In this document: one piece after another, positions 49,755 to 63,937 of the stretch
Numbering within the stretch: position 1 is the first letter of the stretch
How the letters are laid out: every line of letters begins with the position of its first letter
Assembly: GCF_001984155.1 (NCBI RefSeq)
Contig: NZ_MTQO01000053.1
Coordinates: 744,001 to 808,000, forward strand
Direction of reading: 5' to 3'
Length of the DNA: 64,000 nt
From: Actinosynnema sp. ALI-1.44
GTDB lineage: Bacteria; Actinomycetota; Actinomycetes; Mycobacteriales; Pseudonocardiaceae
The notes under the pieces: model-generated
The model's input: the letters and a program-made list of their open reading frames with translations, nothing else
Database searches by the model: none
What the model was told of the DNA's origin: nothing
Program-made: the position numbers and the translations under genes

Positions 49755-50162
49755 TTGTCAATGGTGGGCGACGTGCTGGCCCAAGGCAGTGGTTCAGACC
49801 TCGGCTCGTATCTCCCGATGGTGTTCCTGCTGGCACTGGGAGTGCTGTTCGCGGGGGTCTCGGCGACGCTTGGCGCTCTGGTCGGGCCGAAGCGGTACAA
49901 CAAGGCGAAGTACGAGGCCTATGAGTGCGGCATCGAGCCGTCGCCGCAGCCCGTCGTCGGCGGTGGGCGCGTCCCGGTCGCGTACTACCTCACCGCGATG
50001 CTGTTCATCCTGTTCGACATCGAGATGGTCTTCCTCTACCCGTTCGCGGTCACCGCGGACGCCCTCGGCGTGTTCGGGGTGGTTGAGATCGTCCTGTTCA
50101 TCGCGACCGTCGGTTTCGCCTACGCGTACGTCTGGCGCCGCGGCGGACTGGACTGGAACTAG
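49755..50162 (+). CDS. nuoA: NADH-quinone oxidoreductase subunit A
   Basis: A 135-aa membrane subunit with three helices. Signature [19 protein letters not shown] and [13 protein letters not shown]. First gene of a complete complex I operon ordered A to N, on the plus strand. TTG 49755 is 5 nt from the GGAAAGGA site; ATG 49761, two codons on, is an alternative start. Expression is probably repressed by Rex through the two upstream operators. Confidence 0.94.
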
Positions 50163-50172
50163 AGGGGCAAGC

Positions 50173-50733
50173 ATGGGAATCGAAGAGAAGCTCCTCCCCA
50201 ACGGAGTCATGCTGGCCGGCTTGGAGAAGCTGGTGAACTGGGCCCGGAAGAACTCCGTGTGGCCCGCCACGTTCGGTCTGGCCTGCTGCGCCATCGAGAT
50301 GATGACGGTCGGCGGCGCGCGCTACGACTACGCGCGGTTCGGCATGGAGCGCTTCAGCGCCAGCCCCCGCCAGGCCGACCTGATGATCGTCGCCGGCCGG
50401 GTCACCAACAAGATGGCCCCCGTCCTGCGGCAGATCTACGACCAGATGCCCGAGCCCAAGTGGGTCATCGCGATGGGTGTCTGCGCCTCGTCCGGCGGCA
50501 TGTTCAACAACTACGCGGTTGTCCAGGGCGTCGACCACGTCGTCCCCGTCGACATCTACCTGCCGGGCTGCCCGCCGCGCCCGGAGATGCTGCTCGACGC
50601 GATCCTCAAGCTGCACCAGCGGATCTCCGAGGAGCCGCTCGGCCCTCGCCGCGCCGCGAAGCTGCTGGAAGAGGGCTTCCAGAAGGAAGAGCTGATCCCG
50701 TCCTCCGAGCGCTACGCCAAGAAGAAGGGCTGA
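50173..50733 (+). CDS. nuoB: NADH-quinone oxidoreductase subunit B
   Basis: A 186-aa peripheral-arm subunit carrying the terminal 4Fe-4S cluster N2, which gives electrons to menaquinone. Cluster cysteines are in [20 protein letters not shown] and [14 protein letters not shown] 50173 follows an AGAGGGG site, 10 bp after nuoA. Confidence 0.96.
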
Positions 50734-50736
50734 GCG

Positions 50737-51477
50737 GTGACCACTCCAGGCGACGAGCACTCGAGTGCCGAGCGGCCGGACGAAGGCCTCGAAGCCCGCG
50801 ACACGACACCGAAACCCGGCGTGGTGTCGGGCAGGTCCCGCAAGGGCATGTTCGGTGTCTCAGACGCCGGTGACACGTCCGGCTTCGGTGGCCTCCGGTT
50901 GCCGCAGTACAGCCCGCCTCCGGCCGAGCGGCCGTACGGCGGCTGGTTCGACGAGGTCACTGACGAGATGATGGCGGCCTTCTCCCGCCGTGGCATCCCG
51001 GCCGAGGCCGTCCTGCAGGTCACTGTGGACCGCGGCGAGATCACGTACTACGTGGCGCGGGAGCACCTGCTCAAGATCTGCCAGGCGCTGCGTGACGAGC
51101 CCGCGCTGAAGTTCGAGTTCTGCGCGTCGGTGTCCGGCGTGGACTACGGCGTCGACGTGCCGCAGCGGCTGCACTCGGTCTACCACCTGCAGTCCATGAC
51201 CTACCGGCGCCGGATCCGCGTCGAGGTCGCGCTCGACGTCGACGACCCGCACGTGCCCAGCGTCGTCGAGATCTACCCGACGGCCGACTGGCAGGAGCGG
51301 GAGACCTGGGACATGTTCGGGATCGTCTACGACGGGCACCCCGCGCTGACCCGCATCCTCATGCCGGACGACTGGGACGGCCACCCGCAGCGCAAGGACT
51401 ACCCGCTCGGCGGCATCCCGGTTGAGTACAAGGGCGCGGAGATCCCCCCGCCCGACCAGCGGAGGTCTTACTCGTGA
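50737..51477 (+). CDS. nuoC: NADH-quinone oxidoreductase subunit C
   Basis: A 246-aa peripheral subunit. The N-terminal 75 residues are a poorly conserved extension. The 30-kDa domain follows with [40 protein letters not shown] and [12 protein letters not shown]. It starts at GTG 50737, 3 bp after nuoB, and overlaps nuoD (GTGA). Confidence 0.95.
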
Positions 51478-52835
51478 CCACAAACCCGACTGACGCCACC
51501 ACGCCAGACGCGAGCACCACCACGGGCGACCCGTACGCCGCCGAAGCGCGGCAGACGACCGAGGGACCGGTCTACACGTTGACCGGTGGCGACTGGGACC
51601 AGGTCCTCGAGGACGCCGCGCACGACGAGCGCATGGTGATCAACCTCGGCCCGCAGCACCCGTCCACGCACGGCGTGCTCCGCCTGGTGATCGAGATCGA
51701 GGGCGAGACCGTCACGCAGGCCCGGTCGGTGATCGGCTACCTGCACACCGGGATCGAGAAGAACTGCGAATACCGGACGTGGACGCAGGGCGTCACCTTC
51801 ATCACGCGCACGGACTACCTCGCGCCGTTGTCGCACGAGGCCGCGTACTGCATGGGTGTCGAGAAGCTGCTGGGCATCGAGGCCCCGCGCCGCGCGCAGT
51901 TGATCCGCCAGCTGCTGCTGGAGATCAACCGGATCTCGTCGCACTTCGTCTACCTCGCCACCGGCGGCATGGAGCTGGGCTCCACCACCGCCGCCGCGCT
52001 CGGTTTCCGTGAGCGCGAGGTGCTGCTGCACACGCTCGAGTACATCACCGGCCTGCGGATGAACCACGCGTTCATCCGGCCAGGCGGCGTGGCTCAGGAC
52101 CTTCCGGAGGACTGGAAGGACTACCTGACCAAGTTCGTGAAGACGATGGAAGAGCGCATCAGGATGTACCACAAGCTGTTCACCGGACAGCCTGTGTGGC
52201 GCAACCGCCTCAAGGACGTCGGCTACCTGCCGCTGGACGGCTGCCTGGCGCTGGGCATCACCGGCCCGGTGCTGAGGTCCGCCGGTCTGGCGTGGGACCT
52301 GCGCAAGGTCGAGCCGTACCTGGCGTACGACGAGGTCGATTTCGAGGTGCCGACGTCCACCGACGCGGACTGCTGGGCGCGCTATCTCATCCGGATGGAG
52401 GAGATGGACCAGTCGCTCAAGATCATCAAGCAGACGATGAAGCTGCTCGAGCCGGGCCCGGTCATGGTGGAGGACAAGAAGGTCGCGTGGCCCGCCCAGC
52501 TGACCATCGGTCCGGACGGCATGGGCAACTCGCTCGAGCACGTCCGCAAGATCATGGGCCAGTCGATGGAGTCGCTGATCCACCACTTCAAGCTGGTCAC
52601 CGAGGGCTTCCACGTCCCGGCAGGCCAGGTCTACCAGCCGATCGAGTCGCCGCGCGGCGAGCTCGGCTACCACCTGGTTTCCGACGGCGGCACGCGGCCG
52701 CTGCGCGTGCACGCCCGCGAACCAAGTTTCGTGAACCTGCAGGCAATGCCCGCCATGTCCGAGGGCGGGCTGATCGCGGACCTGATCGCCGCGGTCGCTT
52801 CGATCGATCCAGTCATGGGTGGTGTGGACCGATGA
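51474..52835 (+). CDS. nuoD: NADH-quinone oxidoreductase subunit D
   Basis: A 453-aa 49-kDa subunit lining the quinone site. [19 protein letters not shown] and [16 protein letters not shown] are family signatures, and [20 protein letters not shown] ends the conserved part. An extra 55 residues rich in Thr precede the core. The GTG overlaps the nuoC stop. Confidence 0.96.
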
Positions 52836-53691
52836 CCACTTCCGGGCCGGGGCAGACCTACGGCGGTTCCACCGTCGGCAGCGAGCCCACTCACCAGTCG
52901 ACAGTCGACGACTCGCGCGAAGCAGCCGTCGCGTCCGTGCTTCCCGAGGCGCAGACGCAGAAGCTGGTCGCCGAGGTCGTCGAGGACCTCAGCGTCTTCG
53001 ACGGGATCGTCGAGCGGGCGCAGGCGATCATCGCCCGCTACCCGCAGTCGCGCTCGGCGCTGCTGCCGATGCTGCACCTGGTGCAGTCGGTGCAGGGCTA
53101 CGTCAGCCACGCCGGGATCCAGTTCTGTGCGAGGGAACTGAAGCTGGCCGACGCCGAGGTCAGCGCGGTGGCGACGTTCTACACGATGTACAAGCGCAAG
53201 CCCTGCGGCGAGCACCTGGTCAGCGTGTGCACGAACACCCTCTGCGCGGCGCTCGGCGGCGACGACATCTACGCGAAGCTGCGCGACCACCTCGGTGAGC
53301 CCGGCAAACCGTTGGGCCACGAGGAGACCGCGGGCACGCCGGGCGAGCCCGGCTCGATCACGATCGAGCACGCGGAATGCCTCGCCGCCTGCGACCTCGG
53401 CCCGGTGCTGCAGGTCAACTACGAGTTCTACGACAACCAGACGCCGGAGAAGGCGGTCGAGCTGGTCGACGCGTTGCGGCGGGGTGAGAAGCCCGCGCCG
53501 ACCCGCGGCGCCCCGCTGTCCGACTTCAAGGACGTCTCGCTGCAGCTGGCAGGCTTCTTCGAGCGCGAGTCCGATGTGGACGGTCCGTCGCAGGCGACCG
53601 AGACGCTCGCCGGAGCGCAACTGGCCTCCGACCGCGGCTGGACCGCTCCCACGATGCCCGAGAGCGTGGCGTTCCCCGAGCTGGAGAAGAA

Positions 53692-53695
<4 letters not shown>
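52832..53695 (+). CDS. nuoE: NADH-quinone oxidoreductase subunit E
   Basis: A 287-aa subunit with the 2Fe-2S cluster N1a. Cysteines are in [15 protein letters not shown] and [16 protein letters not shown]. About 45 N-terminal residues and a C-terminal tail of roughly 60 residues make it longer than the E. coli protein, as in other actinobacteria. It overlaps nuoD and nuoF by 4 nt each. Confidence 0.95.
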
Positions 53696-54989
<1,294 letters not shown>

Positions 54990-54990
<1 letters not shown>

Positions 54991-57437
54991 TGACCGTTGC
55001 ACCCGAGAAGAACGAGCTCGTCGTCCCGGAGGGGCACGTCAAGCTCGTCATCGACGGTATCGAGGTGGTGGCTCCCAAGGGCGAGCTGCTGATCCGGACC
55101 GCCGAGCGGATGGGGATCACGATCCCCCGGTTCTGCGACCACCCGCTGCTCGACCCGGCAGGCGCCTGCCGCCAGTGCCTGGTCGAGGTGGAGATGGGCG
55201 GCAGGCCGATGCCGAAGCCGCAGGCGTCCTGCACGATCACGGTCGCCGACGGCATGGTCGTCAAGACGCAGATCACGTCGCCGGTCGCGGACAAGGCGCA
55301 GCAGGGTGTGATGGAGCTGCTGCTCATCAACCACCCGCTGGACTGCCCGATCTGCGACAAGGGCGGTGAGTGCCCGCTGCAGAACCAGGCGTTGGCGCAC
55401 GGCCGCACGGACTCCCGGTTCGTGGACAAGAAGCGGACGTTCCCGAAGCCGATCCCGATCTCGACGCAGGTGCTGCTGGACCGTGAGCGCTGCGTGCTCT
55501 GCCAGCGCTGCACCCGGTTCTCCGCGCAGATCGCCGGTGACCCGTTCATCGAGTTGCTGGAGCGCGGTGCGCAGCAGCAGATCGGGATCGCCGAGGAGAA
55601 GCCGTTCCAGAGCTACTTCTCCGGCAACACCATCCAGATCTGCCCGGTCGGCGCTCTCACGAGCGCCGCGTACCGGTTCCGGTCGCGGCCGTTCGACCTG
55701 GTGTCCACCCCGAGCGTGTGCGAGCACTGCTCCTCCGGCTGTGCCGAGCGCACGGACTGGCGGCGCGGCAAGGTGATGCGCAAGCTCGCGGGCAACGACC
55801 CCGAGGTCAACGAGGAGTGGATCTGCGACAAGGGCCGCTTCGCCTTCCGCTACGCCACCGCCGGTGACCGCGTGCTGCGGCCGCAGGTGCGGGACAAGGA
55901 GTCCGGCGAGCTGCGGGACGCGTCGTGGACGGAGGCGCTGCAGGTCGCCGCGGAGGCGCTGACCAAGGCCCGCGGCGCGGCCGGTGTGCTGACCGGTGGC
56001 CGGTTGACGGTCGAGGACGCCTACGCGTACTCGAAGTTCGCCAGGGTGGCGCTGGGGACCAACGACATCGACTTCCGCGCCCGGCCGCACTCGGTCGAGG
56101 AGCAGGAGTTCCTGGCGTCGACGGTGGTCGGCACGAACCCGGACAACGGCGGGGTGACCTTCACGGCCATCGAAGCCGCGCCGACGGTGCTGTGCGTGGC
56201 GTTCGAGCCGGAGGAGGAAGCGCCGATCGTCTTCCTGCGGCTGCGCAAGGCGGCCCGCAAGGGCCGGACCAAGGTCGTCCACATCGGACAGTGGAGCACC
56301 CCGTCGGTCGAGAAGACCTTCGGCACGCTGCTGGCCACGCCGCCCGGCGGCGAAGCGGCCGCGGTGGACGCGCTGGGCGAGCACGCGGCGGACGTGGTCG
56401 ACGGCCTCGGCAAGCCCGGCTCGGTGGTTCTGGTCGGCGAGCGCGCCGCGCAGGTGCCCGGTCTGTTCTCGGCTTTGCTGCGGCTGTCGGAGAGGACCGG
56501 CGCCAGGATCGCGTGGATCCCGCGGCGTGCCGGTGAGCGCGGTGCGGTCGAAGTCGGTGCGCTGCCGACGCTGCTGCCCGGCGGCAGGCTCGTCGCCGAC
56601 GCCGCGGCCCGCGCCGAGGTCGAGCAGGCGTGGGGCCTCGAGCCCGGTTCGCTGCCCGCCGCGGCAGGCCGTGACACCACCGGAATCGTCGAGGCCGCCG
56701 CGAACGGCGAGCTGAAGGCACTGGTCGTCGGCGGCGTCGACCCGTACGACCTGCCGGACCCGCAGCGGGCGCTCGAAGCGTTGGCGGCAGCGGACTTCGT
56801 GCTCAGCCTCGAGCTGCGGCACAGTGCGGTCAGCGAGTACGCGGACGTGGTCCTGCCGATCGCGCCGTCGGTCGAGAAGGCGGGGACCTTCCTCAACTGG
56901 GAAGGCCGCCGTCGCGAGTTCGGCACCACGTTGGACGGCACCGGCGCACTGCCGGACTGCCGGGTGCTGGACACGCTCGCGGTCGAGATGGACGCGGACC
57001 TCTTCACCCAGACACCGACCGCCGCCGCGGGCGACCTGGCCAGACTGGGCGAGACCAGCACGGCCAAGGCCGCCGCTCCGGCGCTCGAGTCCCGTCAGCA
57101 GGGCCTGCCGCAGAACGACGGCCAGGCGCTGTTGGCCACGTGGCGCCAGCTGCTGGACAACGGGTCGCTGCAGGACGACGAGCCCCACCTGGCCGGAACG
57201 GCCCGCAAGGTCGTGGCCCGCTTGTCCGCGCACACGGCCACGGTCCTCGGCGTGGACAAGGCGGAAGCCGTGACGGTCTCGACGGCCAAGGGCGCGGTCA
57301 CCGTGCCGGTCGAGTACGCGGACCTGCCCGACGGCGTCGTGTGGCTGCCAGGAAACTCCGGCGACGCAACGGTTCGCCGCACTCTCGGAGCCGTCCACGG
57401 CACCCCCGTGAACGTCCACCCAGGAGGGACCGCATGA
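54990..57437 (+). CDS. nuoG: NADH-quinone oxidoreductase subunit G
   Basis: An 815-aa subunit with several Fe-S clusters. The 2Fe-2S ferredoxin-like domain has [19 protein letters not shown], the His-Cys3 region has [17 protein letters not shown], and further 4Fe-4S sites lie in [11 protein letters not shown] and ICPVGAL. A molybdopterin-oxidoreductase-like domain from about 230 keeps the CEHCSSGC motif that can bind an extra cluster. The last 200 residues are Ala-rich and divergent. It overlaps nuoH (ATGA). Confidence 0.95.
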
Positions 57438-58726
57438 CCAGGGCAGAGCTGCTGGCCGACGACCCGATCTGGCTGATCCTGCTGAAGGTCCTGTTCATCT
57501 TCCTGTTCGCGCTGCTCACCGCGATGATCACGGTGTGGGCCGAGCGGCGGCTGATCGGCCGGATGCAGAACCGCCCGGGTCCCAACCGGGTCGGCCCGTT
57601 CGGTCTGCTGCAGCCGATCGCCGACGCGATCAAGATGCCGTTCAAGGAAGAGATCGTTCCGCGCACGGCCGACAAGGTGACGTACCGGCTCGCTCCGGTG
57701 ATCGCTGGCGCCGACGATGATCGGCCTGTCGGTGTGATGCCGTTCGGCCCGGAGGTCTCGATCTTCGGTGAGCGGACCGTGCTGCAGCTGGTCGACCTGC
57801 CGGTCGGCGCGCTGGTGGTGCTGGCCGCCGCGTCGATCGGCGTGTACGGCGTGATCCTGGCAGGCTGGTCGTCCGGAACCCCGTACCCGTTGCTCGGTGG
57901 TCTGCGATCGGCCGCGCAGGTGATCTCGTACGAGATCGCGATGGGTCTGGCGATCGTCGCGGTGATCCTGCAGTCGCACTCGTTGTCGCTCGGCGACATC
58001 GTCGACTCGCAGCACGGCCTGTGGTTCGGTGTGGCGCTGTTCCCGGCGTTCTTCATCTATCTGGTCGCCATGGTCGGTGAGACCAACCGGGCGCCGTTCG
58101 ACCTGCCCGAGGCGGAGTCGGAGCTGGTCGCGGGCTTCCACACCGAGTACAGCTCGATGAAGTTCGTGATCTTCTACATCGCCGAGTACATCAACATGAT
58201 CGTGGTCTGCGCGATGGGCACGACGCTGTTCCTCGGCGGCTACATGGCGCCGTGGCCGATCTCGCTGATCGGTGACAACTACTTCAACAGCGGCTGGTGG
58301 CCGATGTTGTGGTTCATCGCCAAGATCGGCCTCGGGATGTTCCTCTTCATCTGGCTGCGTGGCACGCTCCCGCGTTACCGCTACGACCAGTTCATGAAGC
58401 TGGGCTGGAAGTTCCTCGTGCCGCTGAGCCTGCTGTTCATCGTGGTGCTCACGATCATCAACGCGTGGCCGCAGATGCAGGGCACCGGCAGGCTGATCTC
58501 GGTCGGCTTCGGCATCCTCGTGCTCATCGGGCTGGCGTTCATGGCGCCCGACCGCAGGGACTCGCGGGCGGGCCGGGTGCCGATGTCCGGCGGTGGCTTC
58601 CCGGTGCCGCCGATCGACTTGCAGATTCCGAACAAACCGAGGCGGACCAGGCAGGCCCGCTCACGCGCCGGACGCCGCCAGACGGTGGCGGCCGGGGCCA
58701 AGGAGGGCGACGATGGGGTTTCTTGA
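57434..58726 (+). CDS. nuoH: NADH-quinone oxidoreductase subunit H, with a local frame anomaly
   Basis: A 430-aa membrane subunit at the quinone site. [60 protein letters not shown] and [13 protein letters not shown] are strong signatures. Between APVIA and MPFGPEV the frame reads [10 protein letters not shown], very polar for what is normally a membrane helix. The +1 frame of 57708-57734 reads APTMIGLSV, as expected there. A 2-nt loss near 57707 and a TG duplication at 57733-57736 would explain it, leaving length and downstream frame intact. This is either a compensated frameshift or a sequence error. A basic C-terminal extension of about 60 residues overlaps nuoI by 14 bp. Confidence 0.93.
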
Positions 58727-59243
58727 TCCGGTAAAGGGTTTCGGCGTCACCTTCGGGATGATGTTCAAGAAGGTGGCCACCGAGAAGTACCCCGAGGTCA
58801 AGAAGGTCACCGCACCTCGGTACCACGGCAAGCACCAGCTCAACAGGCACCCCGACGGCCTGGAGAAGTGCGTCGGGTGCGAGCTGTGCGCGTGGGCCTG
58901 TCCGGCGGACGCGATCTTCGTCGAAGGTGGCGACAACACCGACGAGGAGCGTTATTCCCCGGGTGAGCGCTACGGAGCGGACTACCAGATCAACTACCTG
59001 CGGTGCATCGGCTGTGGCCTGTGCATCGAGGCGTGCCCGACCCGCTCGCTCACCATGACCAACGAGCACGAGCTGGCCAACGACAACCGCCAAGTCCTGA
59101 TCTTCACGAAGGAAGACCTGCTCGCCCCGCTGCTGCCGGGCATGGAGATGCCGCCGCACCCGATGCGCCTCGGTGACAACGAGCAGGACTACTACGTGAA
59201 GGGTCCGGAGCTGGCCAAGCGGGCGCAGGAGGAAGCCAAGTGA
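58713..59243 (+). CDS. nuoI: NADH-quinone oxidoreductase subunit I
   Basis: A 176-aa peripheral subunit with two 4Fe-4S clusters (N6a, N6b). The motifs are [12 protein letters not shown] and [15 protein letters not shown] 58713 has AAGGAGGG upstream inside the nuoH end. It overlaps nuoJ by 4 nt. Confidence 0.96.
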
Positions 59244-60076
59244 GCTCCGCGATGCTGCTTGCCGCGAACGAGGTCGCGAAGGTCTCCACCGGCGAGGCGA
59301 TCTCGTTCTGGGTGCTGGCTCCGCTGGCCCTCGGTGGCGCGCTCGGCATGATCTTCGCCCGCAACGCCGTGCACTCGGCGTTGTTCCTGGTGATGACCAT
59401 GCTGTCGCTCGGCGTGATGTACATGATCCAGCAGGCGCCGTTCCTCGGCTTCGTGCAGATCATCGTCTACACCGGCGCGATCATGATGCTGTTCCTGTTC
59501 GTGCTGATGCTGGTCGGCAGGGATTCCTCCGACTCGGTGGTCGAAGTGCTGCGCGGGCAACGGATCTGGGCGGCCGTGCTGGGCATCGGCCTGGCCGGTC
59601 TGCTGGTCTCGGGGGTCGCGGAGGCGCTGACCTCGGTCCGCCCGGTCGGCCTGAACGAGCAGAACGCGGGCGGCGGCAACGTCGCGAGCATCGGCAAGTC
59701 GATCTTCACCGACTACCTGTTCCCGTTCGAGCTCACCTCGGCACTGCTGATCACCGCCGCGCTCGGCGCGATGGTGCTGGGCTACACGGACAAGTCGAAG
59801 CGCAGGACCCAGCGGGAAACCGCGGACGCGCGCTTCCGCGGCGAGCACGACCGGCCGAGCCCGCTGCCCGGCCCGGGTGTGTACGCCACCGCCAACTCGG
59901 TCGCCGTCCCGGCTCTGCTGCCGGACGGCTCGATCGCGCCGGAGTCGGTGTCGGCGATCATCGAGGCGACCGCCTCACGTGAGCTGGCCGCCGACGTCAA
60001 GTCCGTCGCGGGCTCCGAGCCCGGTCCCGACGCGCACGCGCTGAAGGCGGGTTCCACAGAGGAGGGTGACAAGTGA
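59240..60076 (+). CDS. nuoJ: NADH-quinone oxidoreductase subunit J
   Basis: A 278-aa membrane subunit with five helices in the first 180 residues. [20 protein letters not shown] and [20 protein letters not shown] are characteristic. The polar C-terminal 95 residues ([16 protein letters not shown]) form a long cytosolic tail typical of actinobacterial NuoJ. It overlaps nuoI and nuoK. Confidence 0.94.
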
Positions 60077-60372
60077 CCCCCACGTACTACCTGCTGCTCT
60101 CGGCGCTGCTGTTCACCATCGGCGCGGTGGGCGTGCTGGTCCGGCGCAACGCGATCGTGGTGTTCATGTGCGTCGAGCTGATGCTCAACGCGGTGAACCT
60201 GACCCTGGTGACCTTCGCCAGGATCAACGGTTCGCTGGACGGCCAGGTGATGGCGTTCTTCGTGATGGTCGTCGCCGCCGCCGAGGTCGTGGTCGGCCTG
60301 GCGATCATCATGTCCATCTTCCGCACCCGTCGCACGGCCTCGGTCGACGACGCGAACTTGCTGAAGTACTAG
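60073..60372 (+). CDS. nuoK: NADH-quinone oxidoreductase subunit K
   Basis: A 99-aa membrane subunit with three helices. The conserved glutamates are in [12 protein letters not shown] and [17 protein letters not shown] 60073 overlaps the nuoJ stop. Confidence 0.95.
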
Positions 60373-60383
60373 AGGGGTAGCAG

Positions 60384-62336
60384 GTGTCCCAGACATTCAG
60401 CCTTGCCGCCGCGGAGCAGGTGATCCCGGCGAGCGGACTGGCGAGTTCGGCGTGGCTTCTGATCGCGCTGCCCGCCTTCGGCGCACTCGTTCTGCTGGTA
60501 GGCGGCCGTCGCACCAACGCGTGGGGCCACCTGCTCGGCATCACCACGGTCGTCGCGTCGTTCGCCATCGGCATCGCGCTGTTCTTCGGCTCCGGCAGCA
60601 ACCAGATCCAGGAAGCGAACCTGTTCTCCTGGATCGACGTCAACGCGCTGAAAGTCGACTTCGGACTGCGCCTCGACCCGCTGTCGATCACGTTCGTCCT
60701 GCTGATCACGGGTGTCGGTTCGCTGATCCACATCTACTCGGTCGGCTACATGGCCGACGACGACGGCAGGCGCCGGTTCTTCGGCTACCTGAACCTGTTC
60801 GTCGCGGCGATGCTGATCCTGGTGCTCGGCAACAGCTTCGTGACGCTGTACCTGGGCTGGGAGGGTGTCGGTCTCGCCTCGTACCTGCTGATCGGCTGGT
60901 ACCAGAACCGCCCGTCGGCCGCGACCGCGGCCAAGAAGGCGTTCCTGATGAACCGCGTCGGTGACGTCGGTCTGGCCGTCGCGATCTTCCTGCTGTTCAA
61001 GAACCTGGGCACCACGCAGTACGCCGAGGTCTTCGCCCGCGTCGGCGAGCTGTCGCCGGGCACGGTCACCGCGATCACGATCCTGTTGCTGCTCGGTGCC
61101 TGCGGTAAGTCGGGCCAGTTCCCGCTGCAGGCGTGGTTGCCGGACGCGATGGAGGGCCCGACCCCGGTCTCCGCCCTGATCCACGCCGCGACGATGGTGA
61201 CCGCGGGCGTCTACCTGATCGCCCGCGCCAACCCGCTGTACAACCTGTCCGCCGACGGCCGCCTGGTCGTGATCGTCATCGGCGCGATCACGTTGCTGAT
61301 CGGGTGCGTCATCGGTTGCGCGTACGACGACATCAAGAAAGTCCTGGCGTACTCGACCGTTTCGCAGATCGGCTACATGATCCTGGCGGTCGGTCTCGGC
61401 CCGTTCGGCTACGCGCTGGGCATCATGCACCTCGTCGCACACGGCTTCTTCAAGGCCGGGCTGTTCCTCGGGGCCGGTTCGGTGATGCATGCCATGAAGG
61501 ACGAAGTGGACATGCGCAAGTACGGCGGCCTGTGGCGGATCATGCCGATCACGTTCGGCACGTTCCTGCTCGGCTACCTCGCGCTGATCGGTATCCCGCC
61601 GTTCTCCGGCTTCTTCACCAAGGACGCGATCATCGCGGCCGCGTTCGGCCAGGAAGGCTGGCGCGCCTGGGTGTTCGGCGGCGCGGCGCTGCTCGGTGCC
61701 GGGCTGACCGCGTTCTACATGACGCGACTGGTGCTGATGACGTTCTTCGGCAAGCAGCGCTGGAAGGACCTGAAGGCCGAGGACGGCTCGGACTTCCACC
61801 CGCACGAGTCCAAGCCGGTGATGACCGTCCCGATGATCGTCCTGGCGATCGGCTCGATCGGTGCCGGTTTCTTCTTCACCCAGGGCGAAAGGTTCGTCAA
61901 CTGGCTGGCCCCGTCGCTGCAGCCGCTCGAGAAAGTCGAGCACGGCGTCCTCTCGCACGGGTTGATCCAGATCCTGGTGATCGGCCTGTCGGTGCTGGGC
62001 GTGCTGCTCGCGTGGCTGTTCGTCGGCCGCAAGGACGTGCCGGTGGTCAAGCCCGCGAGGGTGTCGCCGGTCGTCAAGGCCGCCCGCGCGGACCTGTACG
62101 GCAACCACCTCAACGAGGCCTTGGTCTCCAGGCCGGGTACCTGGCTGGCCCGCGCGCTGGTCTACGTGGACAACAAGGGCGTCGACGGCCTGGTGAACGG
62201 GATCGCGGCGTCGTTCGGCGGTAGCTCCGGCAGACTGCGCCGGCTGCAGACCGGGTTCGTGCGTTCGTACGCGCTGAGCATGCTGGCGAGCGGGATCCTC
62301 GTGGTCGCCGCGCTGCTGATGGTGAGGTTCTCCTGA
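60384..62336 (+). CDS. nuoL: NADH-quinone oxidoreductase subunit L
   Basis: A 650-aa antiporter-like proton-pumping subunit with about 16 helices. [38 protein letters not shown] and [12 protein letters not shown] carry the conserved Glu/Lys/His proton path, and a long C-terminal lateral helix is expected. GTG 60384 follows AGGGGTAG 11 bp after nuoK. It shares one base with nuoM. Confidence 0.95.
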
Positions 62337-63937
62337 TGAACACCCAACCCGCTGCGATGATCGCGGGTACCTCCGGCGGCGGCTCGGGCCTGCTGCTCGC
62401 GCTGCTGCTGTTGCCGCTGCTCGGCGGCATCGTGGTGGCGTTCCTCAAAGACGACCGGATGGCCAAGCTGACCGCGCTGACGGTCTCCCTGGTCGAGCTG
62501 GTCCTGGTCGTCCCGGCGTGGATCACGTACGTGCCCAACGGGTCCCGGATCCAGTTGGCGCTGTCGGTGGACTGGATCCCGAACTTCGGCATCCACTTCT
62601 CGCTGGGCATCGACGGCATCGCGCTGACGATGATCGCGCTGATCGGCATCCTCACGCCGATCGTGATCGGCGGCTCGTGGGCCGACAAGCTGCCGGAAGG
62701 CCGTGGCGCGGCGGGGTTCTACTCGCTGCTGCTGGTGATGCAGACGGGCATGGTCGGCGTGTTCGCCGCGACCGACGTGTTCCTGTTCTACGTGTTCTTC
62801 GAGGCAGTGCTGGTCCCGATGTACTTCCTGGTCGGCCGCTTCGGCGGGCCGCGCAGGCAGTACGCGGCGATGAAGTTCTTCCTGTACTCGCTGCTCGGCG
62901 GGTTGATCATGCTCGCGTCGGTGATCGGCCTGTACGTGGTCAGCAAGGACTACAACAACGGTGTCGGCACGCTGGACTGGCAGACGCTGTCGACCGTGAT
63001 GGACCAGGCGCCGCTGAGCACCCAGATCTGGCTGTTCCTCGGTTTCTTCGTGGCCTTCGCGATCAAGGCGCCGCTGGTGCCGCTGCACACCTGGCTGCCG
63101 GACGCCACCGCGGAGGCCCCGATCGGCACGGGTGTCCTGCTGGTCGGTGTGCTGGACAAGATCGGCACGTTCGGGTTCCTGCGTTACTGCCTGCCGTTGT
63201 TCCCGGCGGCCAGCAAGGAACTCGCGCCGCTGGTGTTGATCCTCTCGGTGCTCGGCATCGTCTACGGCGCACTGCTCGCGGCGGGCCAGAACGACATGAA
63301 GCGGTTGATGGCGTACATCTCCATCGCCCACTTCGGGTTCATCGGCCTGGGCATCTTCGCCTTCTCGACGCAGTCGATCGCGGGTTCGGCGCTGTACATG
63401 GTCAACCACGGTCTGGCGACCGGAATGCTGTTCCTGGTCGTGGGCATGGTGATCGCCCGCGGCGACTCGCGGTCGATCCGCGACTACGGCGGTCTGGCGA
63501 AGCTGACGCCGGTGCTGGCGGGCCTGTTCCTGTTCGCCGGTCTGGCCGCGCTGTCGTTGCCGGGCCTGAACTCGTTCGTCAGCGAGTTCCTGGTGCTGGT
63601 CGGGTCGTACCCGAACGCGCCGGTCTACGCGATCATCGGCGCGGTCGGCATGATCCTCGCCGCGGCCTACGTGCTGTGGGCCTACCAGCGGGTCTTCCAG
63701 GGCCCGGTGCGCGGCAACGCGTTGGTGGGCTTGAGCGGCGGGCCGGGCACGGCGGGTGATCCGGCCAAGGCCTCGATCGCGGACCTGGGTGTGCGCGAGA
63801 AGGTCGTCCTGGCCCCGCTGGTCGTCCTGATCATCTTCCTGGGCTTCTACCCCGCGCCGGTGTTGGACGTGCTCCAGCCGACGGTGGACGCAACGCTGCA
63901 GTCGGTCGGCCTGGCCGACCCAGTGGGAGGCAAGTGA
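62336..63937 (+). CDS. nuoM: NADH-quinone oxidoreductase subunit M
   Basis: A 533-aa antiporter-like membrane subunit. FFEAVLVPMYFLVGRFGG, LHTWLPDATAEAPIGTGVLL and AYISIAHFGFIGLGIF are signatures, including the conserved lateral Glu and His. The ATG shares a base with the nuoL stop. Confidence 0.95.
   Translation: MNTQPAAMIAGTSGGGSGLLLALLLLPLLGGIVVAFLKDDRMAKLTALTVSLVELVLVVPAWITYVPNGSRIQLALSVDWIPNFGIHFSLGIDGIALTMIALIGILTPIVIGGSWADKLPEGRGAAGFYSLLLVMQTGMVGVFAATDVFLFYVFFEAVLVPMYFLVGRFGGPRRQYAAMKFFLYSLLGGLIMLASVIGLYVVSKDYNNGVGTLDWQTLSTVMDQAPLSTQIWLFLGFFVAFAIKAPLVPLHTWLPDATAEAPIGTGVLLVGVLDKIGTFGFLRYCLPLFPAASKELAPLVLILSVLGIVYGALLAAGQNDMKRLMAYISIAHFGFIGLGIFAFSTQSIAGSALYMVNHGLATGMLFLVVGMVIARGDSRSIRDYGGLAKLTPVLAGLFLFAGLAALSLPGLNSFVSEFLVLVGSYPNAPVYAIIGAVGMILAAAYVLWAYQRVFQGPVRGNALVGLSGGPGTAGDPAKASIADLGVREKVVLAPLVVLIIFLGFYPAPVLDVLQPTVDATLQSVGLADPVGGK

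Follow-up and report, generated by a model that had tools for sequence, protein, structure and literature searches.

A frame- and length-preserving pair of indels in nuoH of a Kibdelosporangium-group genome: local sequence error or recent compensatory frameshift

The window analyzed here, a stretch of 64,000 nucleotides, corresponds to positions 744001-808000 of contig 50 in a Kibdelosporangium-group genome (11.71 Mb, 54 contigs) and carries a nuo operon (Table 1). Apart from nuoH, the gene letters are our own assignments, taken from gene order together with characteristic motifs. The product of nuoH exceeds the cut-offs of both whole-protein profiles (575.8 bits against 494 for NF004743, and 395.3 against 27 for PF00146). 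Residues Glu37, Arg38, Gln45, Arg47, Gly49, Pro50, and Asn51, as well as Glu216, Asn218, Arg219, and Pro221, are invariant across 22 sequences, that of the window included, and are situated in loops expected to lie on the quinone side.

Table 1. Features of the nuoH locus, in window coordinates.
Feature	Position	Strand	Description or basis
nuo operon, nuoA (49761) to nuoM (63937) within the window	49761..63937	+	ORFs, orthologue comparison
nuoH, NADH-quinone oxidoreductase subunit H	57434..58726	+	430 aa plus stop; NCBIfam NF004743, Pfam PF00146
2-base deletion relative to seven genus relatives	57703..57706	+	exact bases ambiguous at ATCGC/TGG; sister genome has one extra GC unit
Ten out-of-frame codons, NuoH residues 92-101	57707..57736	+	C-terminal half of predicted helix 81-101
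GTGTG, with 2-base (TG) insertion relative to genus relatives, frame restored	57732..57736	+	relative comparison
TGA stop codon of the alternative (ancestral) frame, created by the TG insertion	57735..57737	+	window sequence

Seven genus relatives were compared, including Kibdelosporangium persicum, K. aridum, K. philippinense, K. banguiense, and Actinocrispum wychmicini. The nearest relative is a sister genome (G005), which is available as a single 11.76 Mb contig and shares 95% NuoH identity with the window. One of the seven is JOAA01000019.1, a record labeled Rhodococcus rhodnii NRRL B-16535 that contains a Kibdelosporangium-like nuoH with 87% identity to that of the window; the species label looks wrong. 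In a separate case, the part of a Streptosporangiales metagenome bin that matches NuoH (L057, 3001-4356) contains one stop codon in translation.

The letters at 57701-57742 of the window are ATCGCTGGCGCCGACGATGATCGGCCTGTCGGTGTGATGCCG, and frame 0 encodes a charged text there. The first-pass annotation had proposed that the loss of two nucleotides near 57707 and the gain of one TG in GTGTGATG would convert an ordinary helix into this text at unchanged length. Both indels were located at these places by BLAST and MAFFT, the left site being ambiguous as given in Table 1, and the change of -2 and +2 relative to the relatives restores frame and length exactly. Inspection of the window likewise bears out that the other frame reads APTMIGLSV up to the TGA. 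In BLAST comparisons, all seven genus relatives have a net surplus of two bases on the left and a net deficit of two on the right, and all encode in frame the hydrophobic segment that the annotation had suggested looking for, of the form L(A/S/F)PTxxxxxV (for example, VIA-LAPTLIGLSV-MPFG). The alignment shows one clean 2-base gap per side for six of these relatives; for Actinocrispum, the most divergent, the right gap is divided into two gaps of one base. When four genomes were aligned by MAFFT, the window stood at -2 and +2 relative to all three others, which are free of gaps among themselves.

Between the two indels, 28 of 29 bases (97%) are the same as in the sister genome, so the charged text is not a product of chance divergence. 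At the sole differing position the window agrees with four further relatives (L008, L009, L010, and L012), and a different base is found in the sister genome and L011; the block thus contains no base private to the host genome. A search of 390 family genomes for the altered DNA itself (35 bases, at most three mismatches; other charged texts at this helix fall outside its scope) returned one genome, the host's own. No second genome of the same species was found, either among these 390 or in a separate sequence comparison from which near records may be missing.

The altered segment departs sharply from every other NuoH examined. In columns 92-101 of the alignment, Asp, Glu, Lys, and Arg are absent from all 79 other rows (six of which repeat a species and seven of which are copies from second nuo clusters), and the window has four such residues, the three aspartates and one arginine that the first-pass annotation had pointed out. 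None of the 79 rows encodes GADDDRPVG, the finding that had been named in advance as evidence for a natural sequence. The mean Kyte-Doolittle value over these columns is -0.72 for the window and 1.65 to 2.98 for the other rows. On the Wimley-White octanol scale, the best 19-residue sum is +10.8 kcal/mol in the window versus -6.2 to -11.1 in the seven relatives. By charge and by octanol sum alike, the window protein therefore departs from the hydrophobic second transmembrane helix (TM2) of NuoH.

Two AlphaFold2 models of low confidence (mean pLDDT 64.4 and 65.1) both predict a helix at residues 81-101 and, after it, two strands (105-117 or 107-116). The pLDDT of residues 91-100 is 68 for the window and 79 for K. 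persicum; because the alignment dominates such models, they are uninformative as to whether the charged text forms a helix. The closest structural counterparts align without gaps across TM2, namely NuoH of Mycobacterium smegmatis (8e9g_H; phmmer 437.8 bits, query 6-395) and Nqo8 of Thermus thermophilus (4he8_H; 289.4 bits, query 10-373), and the M. smegmatis chain has VIPAFVAFSV where residues 92-101 of the window protein are charged. We take the conserved loop before residue 81 to lie on the quinone side, according to the usual NuoH/Nqo8 topology, and by that topology residues 92-101 would form the half of TM2 away from this loop. The original description, a compensated frameshift or sequence error in a helix next to the quinone channel, thus holds for the indel pair, which is real in the assembly, and finds no support for the location, given that the weak models and the usual topology place the segment in the half of TM2 away from the quinone-side loop. 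A search of passages in one paper from the NuoH mutant literature (PMC9696053) gave no mention of TM2 or helix 2, and our literature search returned nothing linking Nqo8 TM2, quinone, and an amphipathic helix.

We lean, by a little better than an even chance, toward the view that the excursion reflects a local mistake in the consensus or assembly of this single genome. The charged ten-residue text is what the ancestral TM2 DNA encodes when a 2-base deletion on one side and a 2-base insertion on the other, both private, put it out of frame; on this view, a 29-base block was displaced by two bases at constant total length. Both indels would stem from one local event, and the fault would be confined to the assembled sequence, the cell itself making NuoH with an ordinary hydrophobic TM2. 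This reading is favored by the restriction of the arrangement to one assembly, by the physical severity of the change, by the lack of any private base between the indels, and by the exact conservation of length, as expected of a mis-registered block. The principal alternative, to which we assign a substantial probability somewhat short of even, is a genuine and recent compensatory frameshift pair, in which slippage broke nuoH and a second indel 29 bases away restored the frame. The second indel would have relieved truncation and possibly polarity on nuoI-N; length would be kept, the far half of TM2 would be charged, and complex I would probably be weakened or dead, a loss tolerated through other NADH dehydrogenases.

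The pattern of substitution bears on both readings; changes were polarized by three agreeing outgroups. Outside the altered segment, which was excluded, nuoH has acquired one amino acid change and four synonymous changes on the host branch and one and three, respectively, on the sister branch, which are small numbers. Pooled over twelve nuo genes, with nuoB left out of the sums, the ratios of amino acid to synonymous changes are 23/58 for the host branch and 23/62 for the sister branch. Judged from these counts, nuoH is not visibly decaying, and the excursion, if real, is recent or tolerated in a working protein. The lack of relaxed selection elsewhere in nuoH or in the operon argues for an error and against a real pair.

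The quality of the surrounding assembly points in the opposite direction. An 800-kb part of contig 50 was examined alongside approximately 800 kb of syntenic sequence from the sister genome (667 kb aligned, 91% identity); 550 sister ORFs were picked by codon composition, and the 443 of these (449 kb) for which a single alignment covered at least 98% formed the tested set. Frame excursions in either genome numbered 10 compensated and 23 uncompensated. All but two of the uncompensated cases fall on the 5' side, no more than 250 bases into the tested sequence (20 of them no more than 112), a region in which the actual start is in doubt. The remaining two are internal: one is in a 498-base ORF and the other, at contig position 352666 (L209, about 10666), is a 1-base loss private to the host genome, the base being present in all seven other genus genomes; this loss is either a frameshift peculiar to this genome or an error in its sequence. 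The gene affected is nitric-oxide-synthase-like, and its intact relative in the sister genome matches the Pfam NO_synthase oxygenase domain at 267.7 bits. Besides nuoH, three compensated cases were inspected (332891, 411672, and 466131), and all are in divergent stretches. When two further genomes were included over 400 kb, nuoH was the only case with a -x/+x pair against all compared genomes among the 38 rows listed of 107 clusters, a row being listed when an ORF was present and a third genome could be used. With so few internal coding indels, random indel error seems rare here, which weakens the case for an error and supports a real pair; a generally bad assembly finds no support in this comparison. 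As it is very improbable that two unrelated random errors would occur 29 bases from each other, a single local mechanism would have to be assumed for an error.

The frame slip falls inside a contig of 1.0 Mb (at 801,703 out of 1,003,822), and the genome holds no second copy of this DNA, other matches being 56 bases or shorter. The other NuoH, encoded on contig 33, shares just 42% protein identity, and a collapsed paralogue or a chimera of two copies was accordingly rejected. This position within a long contig and the lack of a duplicate locus to mislead the assembly weaken the error reading, and the latter also favors a real pair. Folding of the DNA does not single out a hairpin as the cause, the segment being no better than shuffled sequences (z = -0.39 for 51 nt and 0.87 for 141 nt; 0.07 for the segment of the sister genome). 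Additionally, both indels resemble ordinary dinucleotide slippage, one GC unit having been lost and one TG gained, a character that also speaks for a genuine pair over an error.

A damaged complex I might be tolerated, since redundancy in the host genome is likely. Two NDH-2-like proteins are encoded on contigs 46 and 44 (L246 and L247). Structures matched by the first include NADH:ubiquinone reductase and other NDH-2 enzymes; this protein scores 26.6 bits against the Pfam NDH2_C model, just under the cut-off of 27.7; neither protein has an NCBIfam match above cut-off. Further stretches considered as NDH-2 candidates appear by eye to encode other reductases. A second, partial nuo cluster on contig 33 (L237, 8632-19999) contains, according to Pfam, its own NuoH, a NuoD (49-kDa) on the opposite strand that is truncated where the stretch ends, and subunits of the antiporter type. 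Its remaining subunits are putative, having been named from characteristic motifs, and nuoE, nuoF, and nuoG were not recognized by eye within this stretch. Given the two NDH-2-like proteins and the second nuo cluster, and by analogy with Streptomyces coelicolor, the host may survive without complex I. Streptomyces coelicolor is reported to have NDH-I together with three ndh genes, their regulation being separate (PMC6040156).

Compensatory frameshift pairs (pCFMs) have been surveyed in vertebrates and insects (Biba et al., 2022; PMC8935012). The animal pairs and the nuoH pair are alike in that two indels of at most 2 nt occur on one branch, sum to a multiple of three, and leave the block between them out of frame. 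Of the two marks of a pCFM, the first, two short non-triplet indels on a single branch with the frame restored, is thus present in nuoH (-2 and +2, private); the second is occurrence in more than one species or assembly, or in a transcript or protein, and the nuoH arrangement is confined to the host among the 390 family genomes. In that survey, short compensating indel pairs constitute a low-confidence set, with 624 genes reduced to 27 that have a pair in several species and to six after all filters. Those six are found in several species or in a further genome, whereas the nuoH pair is known from a single assembly; the authors state that their filter may discard genuine single-species pairs. 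The animal pairs are located in less conserved protein regions, in contrast to the nuoH pair, which interrupts a strongly conserved helix that is uncharged in every other row of our alignment, the opposite of where the animal pairs sit. The small number of single-branch pairs that survive filtering and their avoidance of conserved regions, as reported in that survey, argue for an error in nuoH and against a real pair.

A genuine pair also faces a difficulty of its own, in that a dead protein would provide no selection within NuoH for the second indel. The stronger form of this alternative, a fixed pair that replaced half of TM2 with Asp-Asp-Asp-Arg text while complex I continued to assemble and work, is in our judgment improbable. 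Much less probable still is a natural charged TM2 variant with a role of its own, the acid patch having been selected in this lineage: only the exact retention of frame and length speaks for it, and because the ten codons consist of ancestral sequence in a shifted frame and carry no private substitution, nothing indicates selection on the new text. We give least credence of all to programmed recoding, in which the DNA would be correct and the ribosome would shift twice so that the protein retains APTMIGLSV: the alternative frame is indeed open across the block, ending in TGA, yet two separate shifts would be required, no slippery run is seen, folding of the 51-nt segment computed with DNA parameters (an indirect guide to RNA) is no stronger than that of shuffles, and no relative searched has the arrangement, although conservation is expected of programmed ribosomal frameshifting.

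The favored reading, a local error, would have a consequence for annotation. Because no stop arises and the protein score remains higher than the NuoH cut-off, frame- and length-preserving errors of this sort can slip through gene-quality checks, and comparison with close relatives exposes them immediately. If instead the pair is real, nuoH would be a bacterial example of compensatory frameshifts within a core membrane helix, and would offer a natural experiment on how large a part of NuoH TM2 is dispensable to complex I.
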